From Firmicutes bacterium FC7 (GTDB taxonomy: Bacteria; Bacillota; Clostridia; Tissierellales; Tissierellaceae): DNA of 32,339 bases. Each line of letters opens with the position of its first letter. The first letter of the stretch is position 1. This document shows positions 7,027 to 31,456 of the stretch, piece after piece. Under the pieces are notes generated by a model, which saw nothing but the letters and a program-made list of their open reading frames with translations, was not told the DNA's origin and searched no databases. The position numbers and the translations under genes were made by a program. The stretch spans positions 69,752-102,090 of the forward strand of contig JAKELU010000007.1 in NCBI GenBank assembly GCA_022760735.1, given 5' to 3'.

Positions 7027-10000
7027 TTAAGCTTCTGCTTCGGCCAATTTTTCTTCTGAAATTTCTCCAATACTTGAAAGGACCTTGTTAAATTCCTTTT
7101 CGACGAAATCAGTGGTTATTCTTCTTTCAAATAGTTTTGCATCTCCTACTAGAATAAGATTTGCCTTCTTATCTGGCGTATTGAATCCATCTATATAAAG
7201 TACATTGGATTCTCCAAGTGGCCAGAAAGCCCCTTCTGTTAATTTATCTAATCCTTTGTAGCCATAGATGTTTCTAGATATTTCTTCGGTCAATTCTTCA
7301 AGACTATTATAGTTATCTGTCTTACCTAGTACATACATCATTTCATTTACAACTTCCCAGTTCTTATATCCACTTAATGCTGGAATAGCCGCATTCGTTT
7401 TTTGTATTCTTCTTTCCGTACTAGTATAAGTTCCCGTAGACTCAGCATAGCTTACTGCCGGTAATACTACATCAGCAAGTTCAGCTGTTGGAGTTATATA
7501 TAAATCTTGAACTACTAGAAAATCTAGATTTTCTAAATTAATTCCTTCTATATCTTCACCAAAGATCATTAAACCTCTTAGAGTTTTATCCTCTATAGCT
7601 TTAACTAATTCTGTATTTGGTTTATTTATTCCCATATCTACTAATCCTTGGCTGTTATTCTTTGGTTTTAGTTCTATTATGCCACGTCTAGCCTTTCCTA
7701 TTTGACCAGATACTACTGCTATATTAGCAATTAGTCTTGCGGCATCGCTAGTTAGGTAGTTTTGATCAAATACTATCATAGCTTTTTTAGCCTTAGTATA
7801 GATTTCAGCTATTTCCTTGGCATCTGGACTAGGTAATATATCCTTTAAACTTTCTTTTAACTCCTCAAATCCGTTAGCATTCTTAGGAGCAAATCCTAAA
7901 TCAATAATAGCTTTTAAGATTTCTTTTAAGAAGTTTACGCTATTGTCAGGACTAATTTTCTTACTTGCCCAGTCATCAACTTGACTATTAAAATCATTTA
8001 TGACAACTAGTTTGCTACCATTCTTTACAGCTTCCCTAATCTTAAGAGCTGCAATTGTATGATCTTTCATTACATCTGAGCCTACTAATAAAATATATTC
8101 AGCTAATTTGAGCTCATCAAAAGTATTTGTTGAAGCGTCTAATCCTAGAACATCTTCAATTCCACCGTAGTTTTTATTAAATGAAGTTATATTATCCGTA
8201 CTTAAGAACTCACTAGCAAATTTCTTTATTATATATATCTCTTCATTAGTATACCTATCAGAAACAGTAACGCCTACTGCTTTAGGTCCATACTGCATCT
8301 TTAGACTTTGCATTTTCTTAGCTGCTAGTTTTAATGCTTCTTCCCATGTTGCTTCTACTAACTTGCCATTCTTTCTAACAAGTGGTTTTATAAGTCTAGT
8401 CTTTTTATGAGCTTGATCGTATCCAAATCGACCTTTAACACATAATAGCCCATTATCTACCTTGCTATCATTATCAGGTAATGCTCTATATAACATATTT
8501 CCCTTTGTATTTAAGTTTATATTACAGCCTATAGAACAGAATGAACAAACTGTCTTAGTCTCTTCTGATTTAACTGGTACGGACTTTTCTATTTGTAACC
8601 TCTCTTGAATAGCCCCAACAGGACATACACTTACACATTGTCCACAGGAGATACATGATGTTTGCGCAAGAGGTAAGTCTAATGATGGCTTAACTATTGT
8701 ATCAAATCCCCTATTTACTAATCCTAATGCTCCATTGTCCATTATCTCATCACATACTCTAACACAAAGACCGCATAAAATACACTTGTCTGCATTTCTA
8801 ACTATAAATGGATGAGCATCATCGTATTCTCTATGATGCATTTCTCCTTCATATTTCTCTGGATGAACATCATATTCATTAGCTAAAGCATATAACTTAC
8901 ACTCGAATACATCATGGCATCCACATTCAAGACATCTCTTGGCATCTTCTATTGCATCTTCAGGACTAAATCCTAAGTTTACCTCTTGGAAGTTATATTT
9001 TCTATCCTCTGGTGAAAGATGTGGCATAGGGCTTCTATATACAATTTCTCTATCGGCAAAATCCTCTGCAGTAATAGTCTCATCTCGAGTTACTACAAAT
9101 GGAGCTTCATAAGGAACAATATCTCCTTCTAAGTAAGAGTTGATTACACCAGCTGCTTTTTTTGCATCTCCTATAGCTTTAATTGCTATATCTGCACCTT
9201 TATTTATAACATCTCCACCTGCAAATACGCCAGTTATACTTGTTGAGAAAGTAGCTTCATCAGCAGCTATTGTTCCCTTAGGAGTTTTTTCTAGAGCTTC
9301 AAACCCTTCAAGACTTGACTGTTGTCCAATGGCACCGATTATTAAATCTACATCTAGGATTTCAAATTCTCCTTCAATTGGTACTGGTCTTCTTCTACCA
9401 CTTGCATCTGGTTCACCTAGCTCCATCTTTTGAAGTTTAATCTTTGCAGCTCTACCATCTTCTTCTATAATTTCTTCAGGAGCTACTAAAAATTTAAATA
9501 TAACTCCTTCTTCTCTTGCTTCTTTAATTTCAATCTCCTCAGCAGGCATTTCTTCCTCTGTTCTTCTATAAAGCAAATATACTTCTTTTGCCCCAAGTCT
9601 TACTGCAGTTCTGCAGGCATCCATTGCAGTATTTCCTCCACCGACAACTGCAATTCTTTTGCCTATATTCATTGGAACATTTAGTGCAGCATTTCTTAAA
9701 AAGTCTATACCGCCTATTACACCTGGTAATTCCTCACCTTTAACTCGTAGGCTAGCACTTTTCCATGCACCAACAGATATATATACAGCATCAAAGTTCT
9801 TTCTTACATATTCTAAATCTAAATCTCTACCAATTTTTATGTTATTGACAAACTTAGCTCCCATCTTTTCGATTATGGCAATTTCTTGATCTAGAACCTT
9901 CTTTGGTAACCTGTATTCAGGGATACCATATCGTAACATTCCACCCATTTGTGGCATCATATCATAAATTGTAACTTCATGTCCTGCAGCCAATAAGTAA

Positions 10001-10629
10001 TAGGCCGCTGATAATCCACTAGGACCACCACCAATAATACCTACCTTTTTACCAGTTGGCTTTGATATTTCTGGCATAAATACTTCTTTGTCTTTTAGAT
10101 CTATATCAGCAACAAATGCTTTTAAATAAGCAATTGAAACAGGTTCTTCAACTAATTGTCTACGGCATGCATCTTCACATGGATGAGGACAAACTCTTCC
10201 AATGCTTGCTGGAAGTGGTAATTGCTCTTTTATGAGCTTAAGAGCTTCCTTAAATTCCCCATTAGCAATTAATCCTACATAGCCTTGACAATCTGTACTT
10301 CCAGGACATGCCCTTTTACAAGGAGCATAGCAATCACCTGTATGGTCTGACAAAAGTAATTCTAACGCTGCCTTTCTAGTACTTATTACCTTTGGAGTGC
10401 TGGTCTTAATAACCATACCATCAGAAGCCACTGTTGCACAGGCTCTCAATAGCTTTGGAACCCCTTCCACTTCAACTACACACAAGCCACAGGAACCATA
10501 AATTTCTACCCTTTCATCAAAGCACATAGTAGGGATCTCTATTCCATTGGCTTTTGCTATCTCCAATATAGTCTGACCTGAATTTCCCTGAACTTCTTTA
10601 CCATTTATATTAAGATGTATAACAGTCAT
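7027..10629 (-). CDS. GltD/FDH-like FeS flavoprotein, large subunit (Stn-like)
   Basis: Soluble 1200-residue composite redox subunit. Domains in order: [2Fe-2S] ferredoxin (Cys36, 47, 50, 64); a cysteine-rich GltD helical domain (Cys100-155); a GltD-type FAD site (GGGPSG near 200); an NADPH site (GGGNTAMDA near 330 with YRRTEEEMPA); a second FAD motif (GGD near 471); a cysteine cluster (Cys566, 569, 571, 577); two ferredoxin clusters (Cys616/619/622/626 and Cys659/662/665/669); then a formate-dehydrogenase/NuoG-like molybdopterin fold with its own cluster (Cys695/698/702/730). The segment that should carry catalytic Cys or Sec (about 811-850) has neither, so formate oxidation is unlikely. There is no H-cluster domain, so it is not a hydrogenase. 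With NuoE and NuoF partners it matches my knowledge of the Sporomusa-type Nfn, a ferredoxin- and NAD-dependent NADP reductase. Databases may call it formate dehydrogenase alpha or NADPH-glutamate synthase. Confidence 0.8.
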   Translation of the reverse strand: MTVIHLNINGKEVQGNSGQTILEIAKANGIEIPTMCFDERVEIYGSCGLCVVEVEGVPKLLRACATVASDGMVIKTSTPKVISTRKAALELLLSDHTGDCYAPCKRACPGSTDCQGYVGLIANGEFKEALKLIKEQLPLPASIGRVCPHPCEDACRRQLVEEPVSIAYLKAFVADIDLKDKEVFMPEISKPTGKKVGIIGGGPSGLSAAYYLLAAGHEVTIYDMMPQMGGMLRYGIPEYRLPKKVLDQEIAIIEKMGAKFVNNIKIGRDLDLEYVRKNFDAVYISVGAWKSASLRVKGEELPGVIGGIDFLRNAALNVPMNIGKRIAVVGGGNTAMDACRTAVRLGAKEVYLLYRRTEEEMPAEEIEIKEAREEGVIFKFLVAPEEIIEEDGRAAKIKLQKMELGEPDASGRRRPVPIEGEFEILDVDLIIGAIGQQSSLEGFEALEKTPKGTIAADEATFSTSITGVFAGGDVINKGADIAIKAIGDAKKAAGVINSYLEGDIVPYEAPFVVTRDETITAEDFADREIVYRSPMPHLSPEDRKYNFQEVNLGFSPEDAIEDAKRCLECGCHDVFECKLYALANEYDVHPEKYEGEMHHREYDDAHPFIVRNADKCILCGLCVRVCDEIMDNGALGLVNRGFDTIVKPSLDLPLAQTSCISCGQCVSVCPVGAIQERLQIEKSVPVKSEETKTVCSFCSIGCNINLNTKGNMLYRALPDNDSKVDNGLLCVKGRFGYDQAHKKTRLIKPLVRKNGKLVEATWEEALKLAAKKMQSLKMQYGPKAVGVTVSDRYTNEEIYIIKKFASEFLSTDNITSFNKNYGGIEDVLGLDASTNTFDELKLAEYILLVGSDVMKDHTIAALKIREAVKNGSKLVVINDFNSQVDDWASKKISPDNSVNFLKEILKAIIDLGFAPKNANGFEELKESLKDILPSPDAKEIAEIYTKAKKAMIVFDQNYLTSDAARLIANIAVVSGQIGKARRGIIELKPKNNSQGLVDMGINKPNTELVKAIEDKTLRGLMIFGEDIEGINLENLDFLVVQDLYITPTAELADVVLPAVSYAESTGTYTSTERRIQKTNAAIPALSGYKNWEVVNEMMYVLGKTDNYNSLEELTEEISRNIYGYKGLDKLTEGAFWPLGESNVLYIDGFNTPDKKANLILVGDAKLFERRITTDFVEKEFNKVLSSIGEISEEKLAEAEA

Positions 10630-10645
10630 ACTTCACCCCTACCTT

Positions 10646-12388
10646 TTAGTTTATTTCTACAGCATTAAATCTACATACATCGTGGCATTTTCCACACTTT
10701 GTACATAGTTCTTTATCTATTGTATGCTTGCCCTTTAACTCTCCAGAAATCGCATTTACTGGACAGTTTCTAGCACAAATTGTACATCCAGTACAGTTAT
10801 CACTTATTTCAAATGTAATTAAATTTCTACAAACATGAGCTGGGCATTTCTTATCTTTTATGTGTGCTTCGAATTCACTTCTAAAATTCTTTATCATGCT
10901 TAAAACTGGATTAGGAGCAGTAATTCCAAGCTGACAAAGTGCTCCCGCCTGAATATCTTTAGCTAATTGCTCTAATATTTCAATATCTCCTTCTTTTCCT
11001 TTGCCTTCTGTCATTCTTTCCAATATTTCAAGCATTCTCTTAGTACCTATACGACAATGAATGCATTTACCACAGGATTCCTTTCTCGTAAACGACAAGA
11101 AAAATTTAGCCATTTCTACCATACAAGCACTTTCATCTATAACTACCATACCACCTGAACCCATAATTGCTCCTACTTTAGTAACCGATTCATAATCAAT
11201 AGGCGTATCAATTAATTCAGCAGGAATGCAACCTCCTGATGGACCTCCCATCTGTACAGCTTTAAATTTTTTGTCATCTTGTAGTCCACCACCTATATCA
11301 TAGATAATTTCTCTTAAAGGCATACCCATAGGTACCTCAACAAGTCCACCTTTTTTAATTTTACCTGTTAATGCAAACACTTTTGTACCCTTGGATTTTT
11401 CTGATCCAAGTTTTGCATATTCTATACCACCGTGTCTAAATATCCAAGGAACGTTAGCAAAAGTCTCAACATTATTTATATTTGTAGGTTTACCCCAGAA
11501 ACCCTTTTGTGCAGGAAATGGTGGTTTTAATCTTGGCATACCCCTCTCACCTTCAAGAGAAGCAATTAATGCTGTTTCTTCTCCACAAACAAAAGCTCCA
11601 GCTCCAGCTTTTATCCTAATGTCAAAATCAAATCCAGAATCTAATATGTTTTTACCTAAATATCCTTCCTCTCTTGCCTGTGCAATTGCTATGTCCAATC
11701 TCTTAATAGCAAGTGGGTATTCTGCTCTAACGTATATAATACCTACATTGGCACCTATTGCATAGCCACCTATAATCATACCTTCCAGAACCCTATGAGG
11801 ATCTCCTTCAAGTACACTTCTATCCATGAATGCACCCGGATCCCCTTCATCCGCATTACACACCATGTATTTAGGTGTAGCTTTCTCTCTGTATGCTGCA
11901 TTCCATTTAAACCAGGTAGGGAATCCTGCTCCACCTCTACCTCTTAAACCAGCTATTTTTACTTCTTCTATTACTTCTTCCTGAGTCATGTTAAGAGCTT
12001 TCTTTAAACCTTCATATCCACCTACCGCTATGTAATCACTTATGTCCTCAGGATTTATGTATCCACAGTTTTCAGTAGCAATCCTTACTTGCTTCTTATG
12101 TGATTCCATATCCTCATTTGAAATTATTAAACTTTTATCGATTTCTTTTCTAATCGCTTTGTCTAATAAATCTAATACTTTATCAGATGAAACTTTAACA
12201 TATCTATCTAGATGTCCATTATCATCATAGATATCAACAATTGGTTCTAGGTGACATGAGCCTACACAACCTGTTATTTTCAAGTCTATGTCTAATCCCT
12301 TGCCTTCAATTTCTTCTTTAAGTACATTTAATACCTTATTTGCTCCTGCTGCAATACCACAACTACCAAGACCTACTACGACTTTCAT
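10646..12388 (-). CDS. nuoF: NuoF/HydB-like NADH- and FMN-binding subunit
   Basis: NADH-oxidising/NAD-reducing flavin subunit of 580 residues, the HydB-like long form of NuoF. An N-terminal thioredoxin-like segment carries Cys10, Cys41 and Cys45. The NADH/FMN fold has GLRGRGGAGFPTW (147-159), CNADEGDPGAFMDR (177-190) and CGEETALIASLEG (268-280). A [4Fe-4S] site is formed by Cys439/442/445 and Cys485. A CPAHVC pair (515, 520) leads into two C-terminal ferredoxin clusters (Cys532/535/538/542 and 562/565/568/572). In the bifurcating HydABC and Stn complexes this subunit holds the FMN that splits or merges electrons between NAD and ferredoxin. A GGAGG ribosome site overlaps the end of the preceding nuoE-like gene and only one base separates the two. 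The large subunit follows after 16 bases, so the three form one transcript. Confidence 0.9.
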   Translation of the reverse strand: MKVVVGLGSCGIAAGANKVLNVLKEEIEGKGLDIDLKITGCVGSCHLEPIVDIYDDNGHLDRYVKVSSDKVLDLLDKAIRKEIDKSLIISNEDMESHKKQVRIATENCGYINPEDISDYIAVGGYEGLKKALNMTQEEVIEEVKIAGLRGRGGAGFPTWFKWNAAYREKATPKYMVCNADEGDPGAFMDRSVLEGDPHRVLEGMIIGGYAIGANVGIIYVRAEYPLAIKRLDIAIAQAREEGYLGKNILDSGFDFDIRIKAGAGAFVCGEETALIASLEGERGMPRLKPPFPAQKGFWGKPTNINNVETFANVPWIFRHGGIEYAKLGSEKSKGTKVFALTGKIKKGGLVEVPMGMPLREIIYDIGGGLQDDKKFKAVQMGGPSGGCIPAELIDTPIDYESVTKVGAIMGSGGMVVIDESACMVEMAKFFLSFTRKESCGKCIHCRIGTKRMLEILERMTEGKGKEGDIEILEQLAKDIQAGALCQLGITAPNPVLSMIKNFRSEFEAHIKDKKCPAHVCRNLITFEISDNCTGCTICARNCPVNAISGELKGKHTIDKELCTKCGKCHDVCRFNAVEIN

Positions 12389-12389
12389 T

Positions 12390-12923
12390 CTAATCTGCCT
12401 CCTTTGCTAAGGATTTGGACTTTATGTCTCTTAATATTTTTTTTGTTTTTTGAGGTGTAAGGCTTCCATAAGTCTCTCCATTAATCATCATTACAGGAGA
12501 TAAACTACAGCAACCTAAGCATGCTACATTATTTAATGTGAATAGCTTGTCCTCAGTTGTTTCACCATCATGTATATTTAATTCTTCTATTATTGCTTCT
12601 TCGATTTTATCTGCCCCGTTTACATGGCATGCAGTTCCTTTACATAACATTATTACATTTTCACCTACAGGACTCAATCTAAACTGCGCATAAAAAGTTG
12701 CTACTCCATATACCTGTGAAGTTTTGATACCAGTTTCTTTTGCTATATAGTCTAATACAGATAGTGGTAGATAACCATATATTTCTTGAGCATGTTGTAA
12801 TATAGTTATCAAACTACCTTTGATACCTCTATACTCATATAAAACATCATTGAGTAGAGATAAATCAACATTTTCATCATCAATAAATTTTGATTTTAAG
12901 CTTTTTCCTCCACAGCAGCTCAC
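12390..12923 (-). CDS. nuoE: NuoE/HydC-like [2Fe-2S] subunit
   Basis: Small thioredoxin-fold subunit of 177 residues carrying one [2Fe-2S] cluster. Ligands are visible as Cys94 and Cys99 (CKGTACHVNG) and Cys135 with Cys138 or 139 (ACLGCCSLSP). The helical N-terminal part has ILQHAQEIYGYLP and VYGVATFYAQF, typical of the 24-kDa NADH dehydrogenase family. It starts with GTG, 7 bases after AAAGGAG. The N-terminal MSCCGGKS is an extra Cys pair not needed for the cluster. As first gene of the operon it would pass electrons between the NuoF-like FMN and the large FeS subunit. The operon's promoter lies about 95 bases upstream of this start. Confidence 0.9.
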   Translation of the reverse strand: MSCCGGKSLKSKFIDDENVDLSLLNDVLYEYRGIKGSLITILQHAQEIYGYLPLSVLDYIAKETGIKTSQVYGVATFYAQFRLSPVGENVIMLCKGTACHVNGADKIEEAIIEELNIHDGETTEDKLFTLNNVACLGCCSLSPVMMINGETYGSLTPQKTKKILRDIKSKSLAKEAD

Positions 12924-29563: not shown

Positions 29564-30067
29564 CTAGATGTGTTTAGTTCTCCATAATTCATAATATCTT
29601 AAAGCATTTTTTCTAATTCCTTCTAATTCTTCTTCAGTTACCTGTCTAACAATTTTCCCAGGTGACCCTATTACAAGTGAATTAGGTGGAATAACCTTCC
29701 CTTCTGTGATAAGGGTATTAGCACCTATGATACAATTATCACCTATACTAGCACCATTTAAGATAATTGCTCCCATTCCAATTAAACAGTTGTTACCTAT
29801 AGTACATCCATGAACTATGGCATTGTGTCCTACAACGGTATAATCCCCTACCTTTGCAGGAGTATTGGTTTCGTTGTGAACTGTCGCATTATCCTGTATA
29901 TTTGAATATTTGCCTATTGTTATAGGCGCTATATCTCCTCTTAATACTGCTCCATACCATATACTTGAACCTTCGCCAATAGTTACATTACCTAAAACTG
30001 CAGCTGTTTCTGCAACAAATGAATTTTTATGAACATTCGGTATCATTTCTTTCAAATTCTTAATCAT
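29564..30067 (-). CDS. Gamma-carbonic-anhydrase-like hexapeptide protein
   Basis: 167-residue left-handed beta-helix protein of the YrdA/PaaY group. Hexapeptide repeats run from about 20 to 140 (VLGNVTIGEGSSIWYGAVLR, IGNNCLIGMGAIIL, IGDNCIIGANTLI). The three zinc-ligand histidines of gamma carbonic anhydrases are present: His64 (ATVHNE), His81 and His86 (GHNAIVHGC), with Arg43 and Gln58 conserved. Many relatives have little carbonic anhydrase activity in vitro; some are metal-dependent acyl-CoA thioesterases, so the catalytic claim is tentative. AAGGAG lies 7 bases before the ATG. First gene of a pair with the J-domain-like gene. Confidence 0.88.
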   Translation of the reverse strand: MIKNLKEMIPNVHKNSFVAETAAVLGNVTIGEGSSIWYGAVLRGDIAPITIGKYSNIQDNATVHNETNTPAKVGDYTVVGHNAIVHGCTIGNNCLIGMGAIILNGASIGDNCIIGANTLITEGKVIPPNSLVIGSPGKIVRQVTEEELEGIRKNALRYYELWRTKHI

Positions 30068-30451
30068 ATCTAAACTCCTTAGGTTATTATATTATGGTTA
30101 TTTATTATATACTACCCAATTTTTGTTATCATGTATCAAGTCTATTTTGAATTGTACTACTCAAATACTATCAAATATCTGAAAAGTTAGACTTATTGTG
30201 ATTTGTTTAACATTTTAAAAAATGATAATTTGGGTATATAATTATAGTATTATATTTATATATTATTTTCAAGTTAGTGAATTCCAGACTTTTCATGGTT
30301 TTAAATTAATTAACTTTTTTATATAATATTACATTTTTTTAATATTAAATTTTTTTCGATATATTTACATTAAATGCAATAAATATATTGATATTTTATT
30401 ATCAATGTGCTAATATTATTTTGTTAGATTTTATTAACAGGGAGGAGCAAT
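30068..30451. other. Gene-free 384-base divergent region
   Basis: Very AT-rich DNA between the minus-strand carbonic-anhydrase-like gene and the plus-strand membrane operon. I see a likely -10 (30104-30109) with a weak ATGATA -35 (30127-30132) for the minus-strand gene, and the promoter of the plus-strand operon at its right end. A 7-bp inverted repeat (30138-30144 with 30188-30194) and several T and A runs are present. There is no convincing RNA gene, riboswitch or ORF in the middle 200 bases. Confidence 0.6.
30387..30416 (+). promoter_or_regulatory. Promoter and operator-like dyad of the membrane operon
   Basis: TTGATA (30388-30393) and TAATAT (30411-30416) have a 17-bp spacer. The -35 is one arm of a perfect inverted repeat ATTGATA-6-TATCAAT (30387-30406), so a regulator bound there would cover the -35 and half the spacer. 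Confidence 0.5.
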
Positions 30452-30619
30452 ATGTTACGTAAATTAATGGGGCTTATAGCTTTTATTATAACAGGTGTCG
30501 GTCTTGTATTTACTTCACAGCCAAGTGAAATGAGCATTTTAAACATTGGGTTACTATTACTTGTAGGCTTTTTTTATACAGTAAGTATAATTGGTCATTT
30601 TAAAGATCTTAAAGAATAG
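30452..30619 (+). CDS. Small two-helix membrane protein
   Basis: 55-residue ORF beginning MLRKLMGLIAFIITGVG and ending IIGHFKDLKE. Two hydrophobic helices (about 5-20 and 29-48) are joined by a short polar loop (TSQPSEMS); the ends are positively charged. GGGAGGAG lies 4 bases before the ATG, a promoter lies just upstream, and the next gene starts 9 bases after its stop, all of which support a real gene despite its size. No family recognised. It heads the three-gene membrane operon. Confidence 0.7.
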   Translation: MLRKLMGLIAFIITGVGLVFTSQPSEMSILNIGLLLLVGFFYTVSIIGHFKDLKE

Positions 30620-30628
30620 GTGATAAGA

Positions 30629-30988
30629 ATGAAATTTGATAAAAATAAAATTAAAATAATAATATGTGCTATTGCCGGTACAACTTTATCATGGTTTATC
30701 AATCACGAAATTGGCTTTGGTGCAATTGTAGCTAGCGGATTAGTAGGAGTAATTGCAGCTATTTTATTACCTGCTTCGCTTGCCGGTACAGCATATACTG
30801 CATCCTTCGTAGGTATGAGTTCAACTTCAATCATACCTTCCCTAGGAGCTGCTTTATTAGCGGGACTAATAGTTGGTATTATGATAATTTTTACTACTGA
30901 AATCTATGCTGGTATTGGCGGCAAAGGTGGTACAACTGCAGCACTATCAACAATAATCACAAAGATAATTCTTGGATTATTCAGTTAG
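30629..30988 (+). CDS. Small membrane protein, tandem paralogue A
   Basis: 119-residue integral membrane protein with about four hydrophobic segments. It aligns with the next gene product over its whole length: IVASGLVGVIAAILLP matches FASALVTLISGIFLP, and IIFTTEIYAGIGGKGGTTAA matches IIFSTSYVGIGGRLGSIAA. The shared glycine-rich YxGIGG(K/R)xG(T/S)xAA motif (about residues 93-105) is the family hallmark. I do not recognise the family. A GTG at 30620 opens the frame, but the ATG at 30629 follows AGGTGAT and fits better. Its stop lies 11 bases before the next start. Possible roles include a small transporter subunit; none is shown. Confidence 0.75.
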   Translation: MKFDKNKIKIIICAIAGTTLSWFINHEIGFGAIVASGLVGVIAAILLPASLAGTAYTASFVGMSSTSIIPSLGAALLAGLIVGIMIIFTTEIYAGIGGKGGTTAALSTIITKIILGLFS

Positions 30989-30999
30989 GAGGTTATATA

Positions 31000-31428
31000 T
31001 TGGAGATTTTAATGATTATACTTGTAGCCATATGCGCAGGTACAGCTACCTATTCTATATCTTATTTATTGAATAAAGGTCCTGTATTTGCTTCAGCCTT
31101 AGTTACTTTGATTTCAGGAATTTTCCTACCATATTTTCTTCCAGAAAATGGTCCTACATTGATGGCTGTAGCAGCATGTGCTTCATATGCAGGCCAGGTT
31201 TCAAATAAAAATGTACCTAACCTACGAGAAATGATAATGGTTTCTTTAATAACTGGTGCTTTGTTCATTATATTCTCAACTTCATATGTAGGAATAGGTG
31301 GAAGATTAGGTTCTATCGCTGCTATTTCTTGTTTTACATGGATGGGAATTAAAAAGGTTTTTAAAAATGACAATTTGCAAGATAATAAAATTTCATATAT
31401 AAATAAAGTCAATTTTTCTGAAAAATAA
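31000..31428 (+). CDS. Small membrane protein, tandem paralogue B
   Basis: 142-residue membrane protein with about four hydrophobic segments, homologous to the preceding gene product and sharing YVGIGGRLGSIAA (about residues 95-107). It differs by a short insertion after FLP (YFLPENGPTLM) and a polar lysine/asparagine-rich C-terminal tail of about 25 residues (FKNDNLQDNKISYINKVN). It starts with TTG at 31000, 7 bases after AGGAGG. The pair arose by duplication and probably assembles as a hetero-oligomer, an inference from linkage. A terminator follows at once, closing the operon. Confidence 0.75.
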   Translation: MEILMIILVAICAGTATYSISYLLNKGPVFASALVTLISGIFLPYFLPENGPTLMAVAACASYAGQVSNKNVPNLREMIMVSLITGALFIIFSTSYVGIGGRLGSIAAISCFTWMGIKKVFKNDNLQDNKISYINKVNFSEK

Positions 31429-31456
31429 GCTACACTATATGGTGTAGCTATTTTTA
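31428..31456 (+). terminator. Terminator of the membrane operon
   Basis: AGCTACAC/GTGTAGCT, an 8-bp stem with a TATATG loop and an ATTTTTAT tail, beginning at the last base of the stop codon. Confidence 0.85.

Follow-up and report, generated by a model that had tools for sequence, protein, structure and literature searches.

Three small genes, P1, A and B, lie in a row on one strand at positions 30452-31428 of the window, the 32,339-nucleotide stretch of DNA from Firmicutes bacterium FC7 that was analyzed as a whole (Table 1). A and B are very probably the two halves of a single membrane protein, an inverted repeat of five plus five helices that is split over two genes. We tentatively propose that this split protein, AB, serves in transport, with formate as its most likely cargo.

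Table 1. Features of the P1-A-B locus, with positions in the window
Feature	Position	Strand	Description
P1	30452-30619	+	55 aa, ATG start, two predicted TM helices
A	30629-30988	+	119 aa from ATG; membrane protein, probable first half; predicted N-in/C-out
Likely RBS of B, AGGAGG	30987-30992	+	Overlaps stop codon of A; read from sequence
B	31000-31428	+	142 aa, TTG start behind AGGAGG; probable second half; predicted N-out/C-in
Intrinsic terminator-like hairpin	31428-31449	+	9 pairs, then T-run

An earlier note on this DNA had described an operon of three small membrane protein genes with its own promoter, an operator-like dyad and a terminator. The three same-strand ORFs were confirmed, with GTG at 30620 as an alternative possible start for A. 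The terminator was also borne out: the scan gave two hits, which represent one hairpin on both strands, compared with 0.5 ± 0.6 in shuffled sequences. The promoter and the dyad were not clearly supported. Promoter-like sites numbered 14 (both strands) versus 9.4 ± 3.2 in shuffles, and the AT-rich surroundings of the 12-nt dyad (30356-30391, 92% complementary) contain six other inverted pairs; neither element clearly exceeds what such AT-rich sequence yields by chance. The divergent gene adjoining the operon (29564-30067, − strand) encodes a hexapeptide-repeat protein that looks gamma-carbonic-anhydrase-like by eye, and a same-genus genome (L171) has a 167-aa frame at the matching position. About 18 kb from AB, the window also encodes a NuoE/NuoF pair and a 1200-aa protein in which ferredoxin, pyridine-nucleotide oxidoreductase and molybdopterin-oxidoreductase domains are joined (7027-12923, − strand).

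A and B are true paralogues, as the earlier note had claimed: in a single pairwise comparison by BLASTP, they were 37% identical over 106 columns (E 9e-15). The motif that it had noticed at matching positions is YAGIGGKGGTTAA in A (residues 93-105), which carries the GGK form, and YVGIGGRLGSIAA in B (residues 96-108), which carries the GGR form. This GG(K/R)xG turn precedes the last helix of each half. A base follows GG in 70 of 71 A proteins, the remaining one being broken off by a contig end, and in all 72 B proteins; among 45 fused proteins, 42 have it in each half. Of the three fused exceptions, the first is a truncated sequence, the second retains its lysine in a variant missed by the pattern, and the third, a haloarchaeal copy, has lost the base in its second half. 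Such near-invariance suggests that the motif is functional, in line with the earlier note.

The earlier reader had recognized no family, and profile searches likewise assigned none. P1, A and B had no match above cut-off in Pfam and NCBIfam, PADLOC and PHROGs gave nothing at E <= 0.1, and the tested relatives matched no Pfam or NCBIfam family, the sCache neighbour (see below) excepted. PDB sequences searched with fused-form and B profiles yielded nothing related, the single row being an ammonium transporter at E 0.18. Within these searches, a known family for the three proteins was ruled out. At E <= 1, the FNT profile PF01226 matched neither A nor B, nor a P1A form, nor P0004, a fused relative, and Fluc/CrcB and SMR profiles in Pfam and NCBIfam likewise gave no match. 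B matched RnfD weakly (E 0.003, and 1.7e-4 in another search), but this homology was dropped because hhalign gave nothing better than controls.

To count gene states, we fetched 68 related loci from genome contigs. A lies next to B in 49 loci, and 16 encode one fused protein of about 335 aa; the remaining three (L078, L095, L099) are cut by contig ends. P1 occurs in relatives either as a separate gene or as an N-terminal extension of A: a P1-like frame stands alone in 28 of the 49 adjacent loci, P1 is contained in a long A in 17, and no P1 was found in 4. Consistently, phmmer matched P1 to 186-187-aa A proteins of relatives, and P0004 (L017) unites all three parts in one 351-residue protein. 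The A-B gaps (n = 77, some loci counted twice) measured 1-24 nt in 67 cases and 94 nt in one, with nine overlaps. The 534-aa frame of the Natrialba copy probably begins too far upstream, because its initial portion overlaps an opposite-strand frame that looks like a gene. The genes thus stay together as one membrane system, as the earlier note had supposed, and adjacency together with fusion in relatives supports the A/B hetero-oligomer that it had suggested.

We then built a tree of 120 half sequences, 30 per class, randomly sampled from 66 A, 71 B, 43 repeat-1 and 43 repeat-2 sequences. A and repeat 1 grouped apart from B and repeat 2 (1 of 120 misplaced, support 0.98), and split A and split B each formed approximately one clade, with one sequence misplaced for A (support 0.94) and none for B (support 0.999). 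These groupings indicate that the duplication predates the split state, and that the splitting or fusion of the halves probably happened once.

The charge bias of the two proteins is opposite. Counts come from the sequences in which the anchors were located: 53 of 71 for A, 55 of 72 for B and 30 of 45 for the fused form. The ten-residue segment ahead of TM1 contains 2.58 K/R in A versus 0.16 in B, the five-residue TM1-H2 loop contains 0.26 in A versus 1.67 in B, and the tail of B carries 1.96 more. The same inversion appears within the fused proteins, where K/R per residue is 0.123 before TM1, 0.007 in the repeat-1 loop and 0.009 in the linker, then 0.167 in the repeat-2 loop and 0.219 in the tail. 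By the positive-inside bias, A is predicted to be N-in and B N-out, and the odd number of helices per half fits this inverted topology. The paralogous membrane pair of the earlier note stands, but that note had missed that A and B would be oppositely oriented halves of one inverted-repeat protein.

AlphaFold2 modelled the fused form (L090, 41-row alignment) with 2+5+5 helices (pLDDT 94.6, pTM 0.91), of which helices 2-30 and 34-60 are the P1 part, and gave five helices for the window's B (pLDDT 88.8); some helices of AB are short (14-19 residues). A mixed alignment with B rows placed B on the first half and was left out of folding. Foldseek returned no match at E <= 0.001 for the fused-form and half models. 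The CLC fold supplied its top rows and was rejected (E >= 0.013, TM < 0.2). In the VIA structural list, the rows of the fused form (Z 5.8-3.9), including an Amt sensor (5.8), a urea transporter (5.5), glutamate transporters (5.5) and an Rnf chain (4.4), lay within the background of helical proteins. The half-model search likewise stayed within the stated background: its rows ranged over Z 5-8, with TRIC best (Z 7.8) and TRIC and Rnf/NQR membrane chains together spanning 7.8-6.3. AB is accordingly given no fold assignment.

A first contig scan with B alone as the query found no relative. A search within the window's genus, family and order, covering 60 genomes with its own among them, gave 16 B matches, of which 15 are real; the match in G055 is RnfD and was not counted. 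In 398 genomes of the phylum, 27 of 28 matches were kept, that of G394 (L127, E 2.3e-4) being removed from the AB-positive set as a chance match. Matches were also obtained in 41 of 145 genomes of Halobacteria, two of them only as weak fragments, and in 9 of 149 genomes of the spirochaete phylum. Eight of the latter are long forms (L200-L207) that measure 507-529 aa where complete and are extended at the C terminus. They are without the N-terminal two-helix part, and the roughly 200-aa C-terminal part is soluble and GAF-like by eye; three of these forms were scanned in Pfam with no significant match.

Neighbouring genes were called by phmmer best match (E <= 1e-10, 17 query proteins) anywhere in a stretch of 3-16 kb. 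Of the 29 stretches that make up the phylum sample (L142-L170), 17 contained fdhD or fdhA, compared with none of 20 control stretches taken from 11 of these genomes (Fisher p 9e-6). L165 was not counted among the 17, its best score being to a hydrogenase. A single gene order, selA-selB-lysR-selD-fdhD-A-B, accounts for ten of the 17 and recurs in three families (f37, f79, f126; Pfam on representatives of all genes except lysR), so that these ten are not independent. Mrp genes occurred in 3 of the 29 stretches, [FeFe]-hydrogenase-type genes in 4, weak sCache matches in 2, and none of these in 9. The 68 contig loci, which overlap this sample (judged by length, L142-L146 and L153 are the contigs of L049, L053, L064, L057, L054 and L077), gave fdhA in 6, Mrp in 11, hydrogenase genes in 5 and sCache in 16. 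Only five of the six fdhA matches were counted as strong, three of these in Spirochaetaceae, because that of L067, located at the edge of a contig, scored only 45 bits. In 33 loci, many of them on short contigs, no tested neighbour was found.

The association with formate dehydrogenase does not extend evenly. Nine stretches of the window's genus, family and order (L171-L179) contained sCache in 2 and neither FdhD/FdhA nor any other tested neighbour, and among 20 haloarchaeal stretches only one had an fdhA-like gene, which is a molybdopterin oxidoreductase by Pfam. In the window's genome, a separate locus (L253, G000:C23:38000-57000) holds an fdh operon, read by eye with fdhD assigned by Pfam, that includes nuoE, nuoF, fdhA pieces, mobA, fdhD, a tupABC-like set, two moeA, moaA and moaC. 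In two genomes (L162, L163), the fused copy lies between formate dehydrogenase and Mrp genes. An excerpt of PMC8595942 describes an archaeal Fdh-Mfh-Mnh cluster accompanied by a formate transporter gene, and by analogy AB may fill that niche in loci of this type. The earlier note's description of the system as self-contained is not supported, since in many relatives AB sits among genes for formate dehydrogenase, hydrogenase, Mrp or sCache proteins.

Whole-genome comparisons were made across the 398 phylum genomes, with kinship ignored. FdhD was present in 20 of 27 AB-positive versus 181 of 371 AB-negative genomes (p 0.015), although 7 of the 27 show no FdhD. FNT was rarer with AB (3/27 versus 142/371, p 0.0035), also when only FdhD-positive genomes were compared, again ignoring kinship (1/20 versus 77/181, p 5e-4). 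In the window's genome, FNT was not found at E <= 1e-10 and ModB is present; metal uptake there looks covered and a formate channel looks missing.

The same genomes bear on an alternative in which a protein of identical inverted-repeat architecture would carry molybdate or tungstate for the Mo/W cofactor of formate dehydrogenase, which we regard as the main rival, though unlikely. Four loci (L151, L152, L154, L155) read fdhD-A-B-moeA-moeA, and moeA and moeB-like genes were seen by eye near haloarchaeal copies. We compared ModB in all 20 genomes with AB and FdhD, leaving out the seven AB-positive genomes without FdhD, and in the first 60 by handle of the 181 with FdhD and without AB. ModB was over cut-off in 2/20 versus 41/60 (p 5e-6, kinship ignored), a depletion as strong as that of FNT, and no ModB-like permease was detected at E <= 1e-10 in 6/20 versus 0/60. 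However, five of these six genomes, all with fdhD and AB, belong to one family (f37; G068, G217, G242, G363, G385) and the sixth is 87% complete, a ModB-like frame of 221-243 aa, resembling TupB by size and score, occurs in at least 7 of the 20, and the window's genome combines ModB with the tupABC-like set of its fdh operon. Nor do the Mrp, [FeFe]-hydrogenase and sCache neighbourhoods have an evident molybdenum logic. The formate reading has its own difficulties: the equally strong ModB depletion, the pairing with Mrp or sCache genes at many loci, the near absence of FdhD/FdhA beside copies of the window's own order and of haloarchaea, the single synteny behind most formate dehydrogenase stretches, the loci without tested neighbours, the AB-positive genomes that have FNT or show no FdhD, and the absence of a decisive fold match.

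Quite unlikely, in our view, is a role of AB as an accessory ion-homeostasis protein of Mrp-type Na+/H+ antiporters, be it in cation or bicarbonate movement or as an antiporter subunit. In Alkaliphilus-type loci, AB immediately precedes genes of the mrpE-F-G-mbhD-mbhE-mnhB type (Pfam confirmed one representative per Mrp gene), and single loci have TrkH-like genes (L048, by eye) or a Na/H exchanger and CLC (L049) alongside. A haloarchaeal fused copy adjoins DabA (by Pfam; inorganic-carbon accumulation) and a DabB-like antiporter gene (L193:8857-12838), a possible hint at bicarbonate. No Mrp query matched in the nine stretches of closer relatives or the 20 haloarchaeal ones, however, and the proteins themselves do not resemble Mrp subunits: Pfam gave no match to MnhB/E/F/G or MbhD/E profiles, NCBIfam gave only below-threshold matches to subunit F (E 0.046 for P1, 0.067 for a B relative), and hhalign against four Mrp subunits and MbhE showed no similarity above background. 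Osmotic or ion stress, to which the earlier note had pointed, is not the best-supported role, despite these neighbours. Tissierella-type loci (e.g., L035:6817-7539) have a membrane-anchored sCache_3 protein after AB, which could be a substrate-binding or sensing partner. This arrangement, together with the long spirochaete forms and their soluble C-terminal part, would suit a sensor or signalling module in place of a transporter; we consider that very unlikely, as the one sCache protein scanned, from a relative, has no output domain, Pfam found nothing significant in the long forms examined, and the split and ~335-aa forms are without such a soluble domain.

We return to formate transport. In the mechanism that we propose, A and B would together make up a ten-helix transport protein whose two sets of five helices (5+5) are related by internal inverted symmetry; A would insert N-inside/C-outside and B the opposite way up, so that antiparallel pairing would be needed to make the unit that relatives produce as one chain. 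P1 would be its two-helix N-terminal domain, a separate subunit in the window. The fifth helix of each half would start at the GG(K/R)xG(T/S) turn, and the two motif bases, one from A and one from B, probably form a pseudo-symmetric anion site in a narrow path lined by small residues. Transport is the likely role, and we favour a channel or transporter for formate or a similar small anion. Formate itself, for formate dehydrogenase or hydrogenase metabolism in genomes mostly without a FocA/FNT channel, is our best guess from genomic association and remains short of probable.

AB may, on a somewhat bolder reading that we put forward only as a possibility, represent a family of formate channels or transporters, distinct from FNT and so far undescribed, that replaces FocA near formate dehydrogenases in Firmicutes, spirochaetes, Chloroflexota, mollicute relatives and haloarchaea, in three-, two- and one-gene states. 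No non-FNT formate transporter of this kind appeared among the literature matches listed, which comprised titles and abstract starts and did not include subscription papers or preprints. In the 398-genome sample, 123 of 201 FdhD genomes had no FNT match, and an excerpt of an acetogen paper (PMC10213532) states that diffusion of formic acid was assumed because the genome was without a PF01226 gene. If true, a second formate transporter family would fill this gap, and AB would be a genome marker for formate users. The three gene states would also offer a natural series for the splitting and fusion of inverted-repeat transporters.

Several known systems resemble AB in part. Urea transporters, Amt/Rh channels and RnfD/NqrB are 5+5 inverted repeats. 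They share this helix count with AB and were among the top rows of the weak structural list, but their Z scores were within background and their hhalign probabilities (0.5, 0.2 and 0.6%, respectively) were like those of eight control families (0.1-1.1%), the urea transporter and Amt profiles being a weak test, built from only 2 and 3 sequences. The formate-nitrite transporters FocA/FdhC are like AB in proposed cargo and in their genomic niche near formate dehydrogenase genes, whereas AB does not match PF01226 and has its inverted 5+5 repeat in two genes. Fluc/CrcB and SMR proteins differ from A and B in their motif and in having an even number of helices instead of five per half. Like A and B, they are small homologous membrane proteins from adjacent genes, with opposite charge bias, antiparallel pairing (predicted in A/B) and fused versions elsewhere; a Fluc gene pair, according to an excerpt of PMC3755343, is active only if both members are present.
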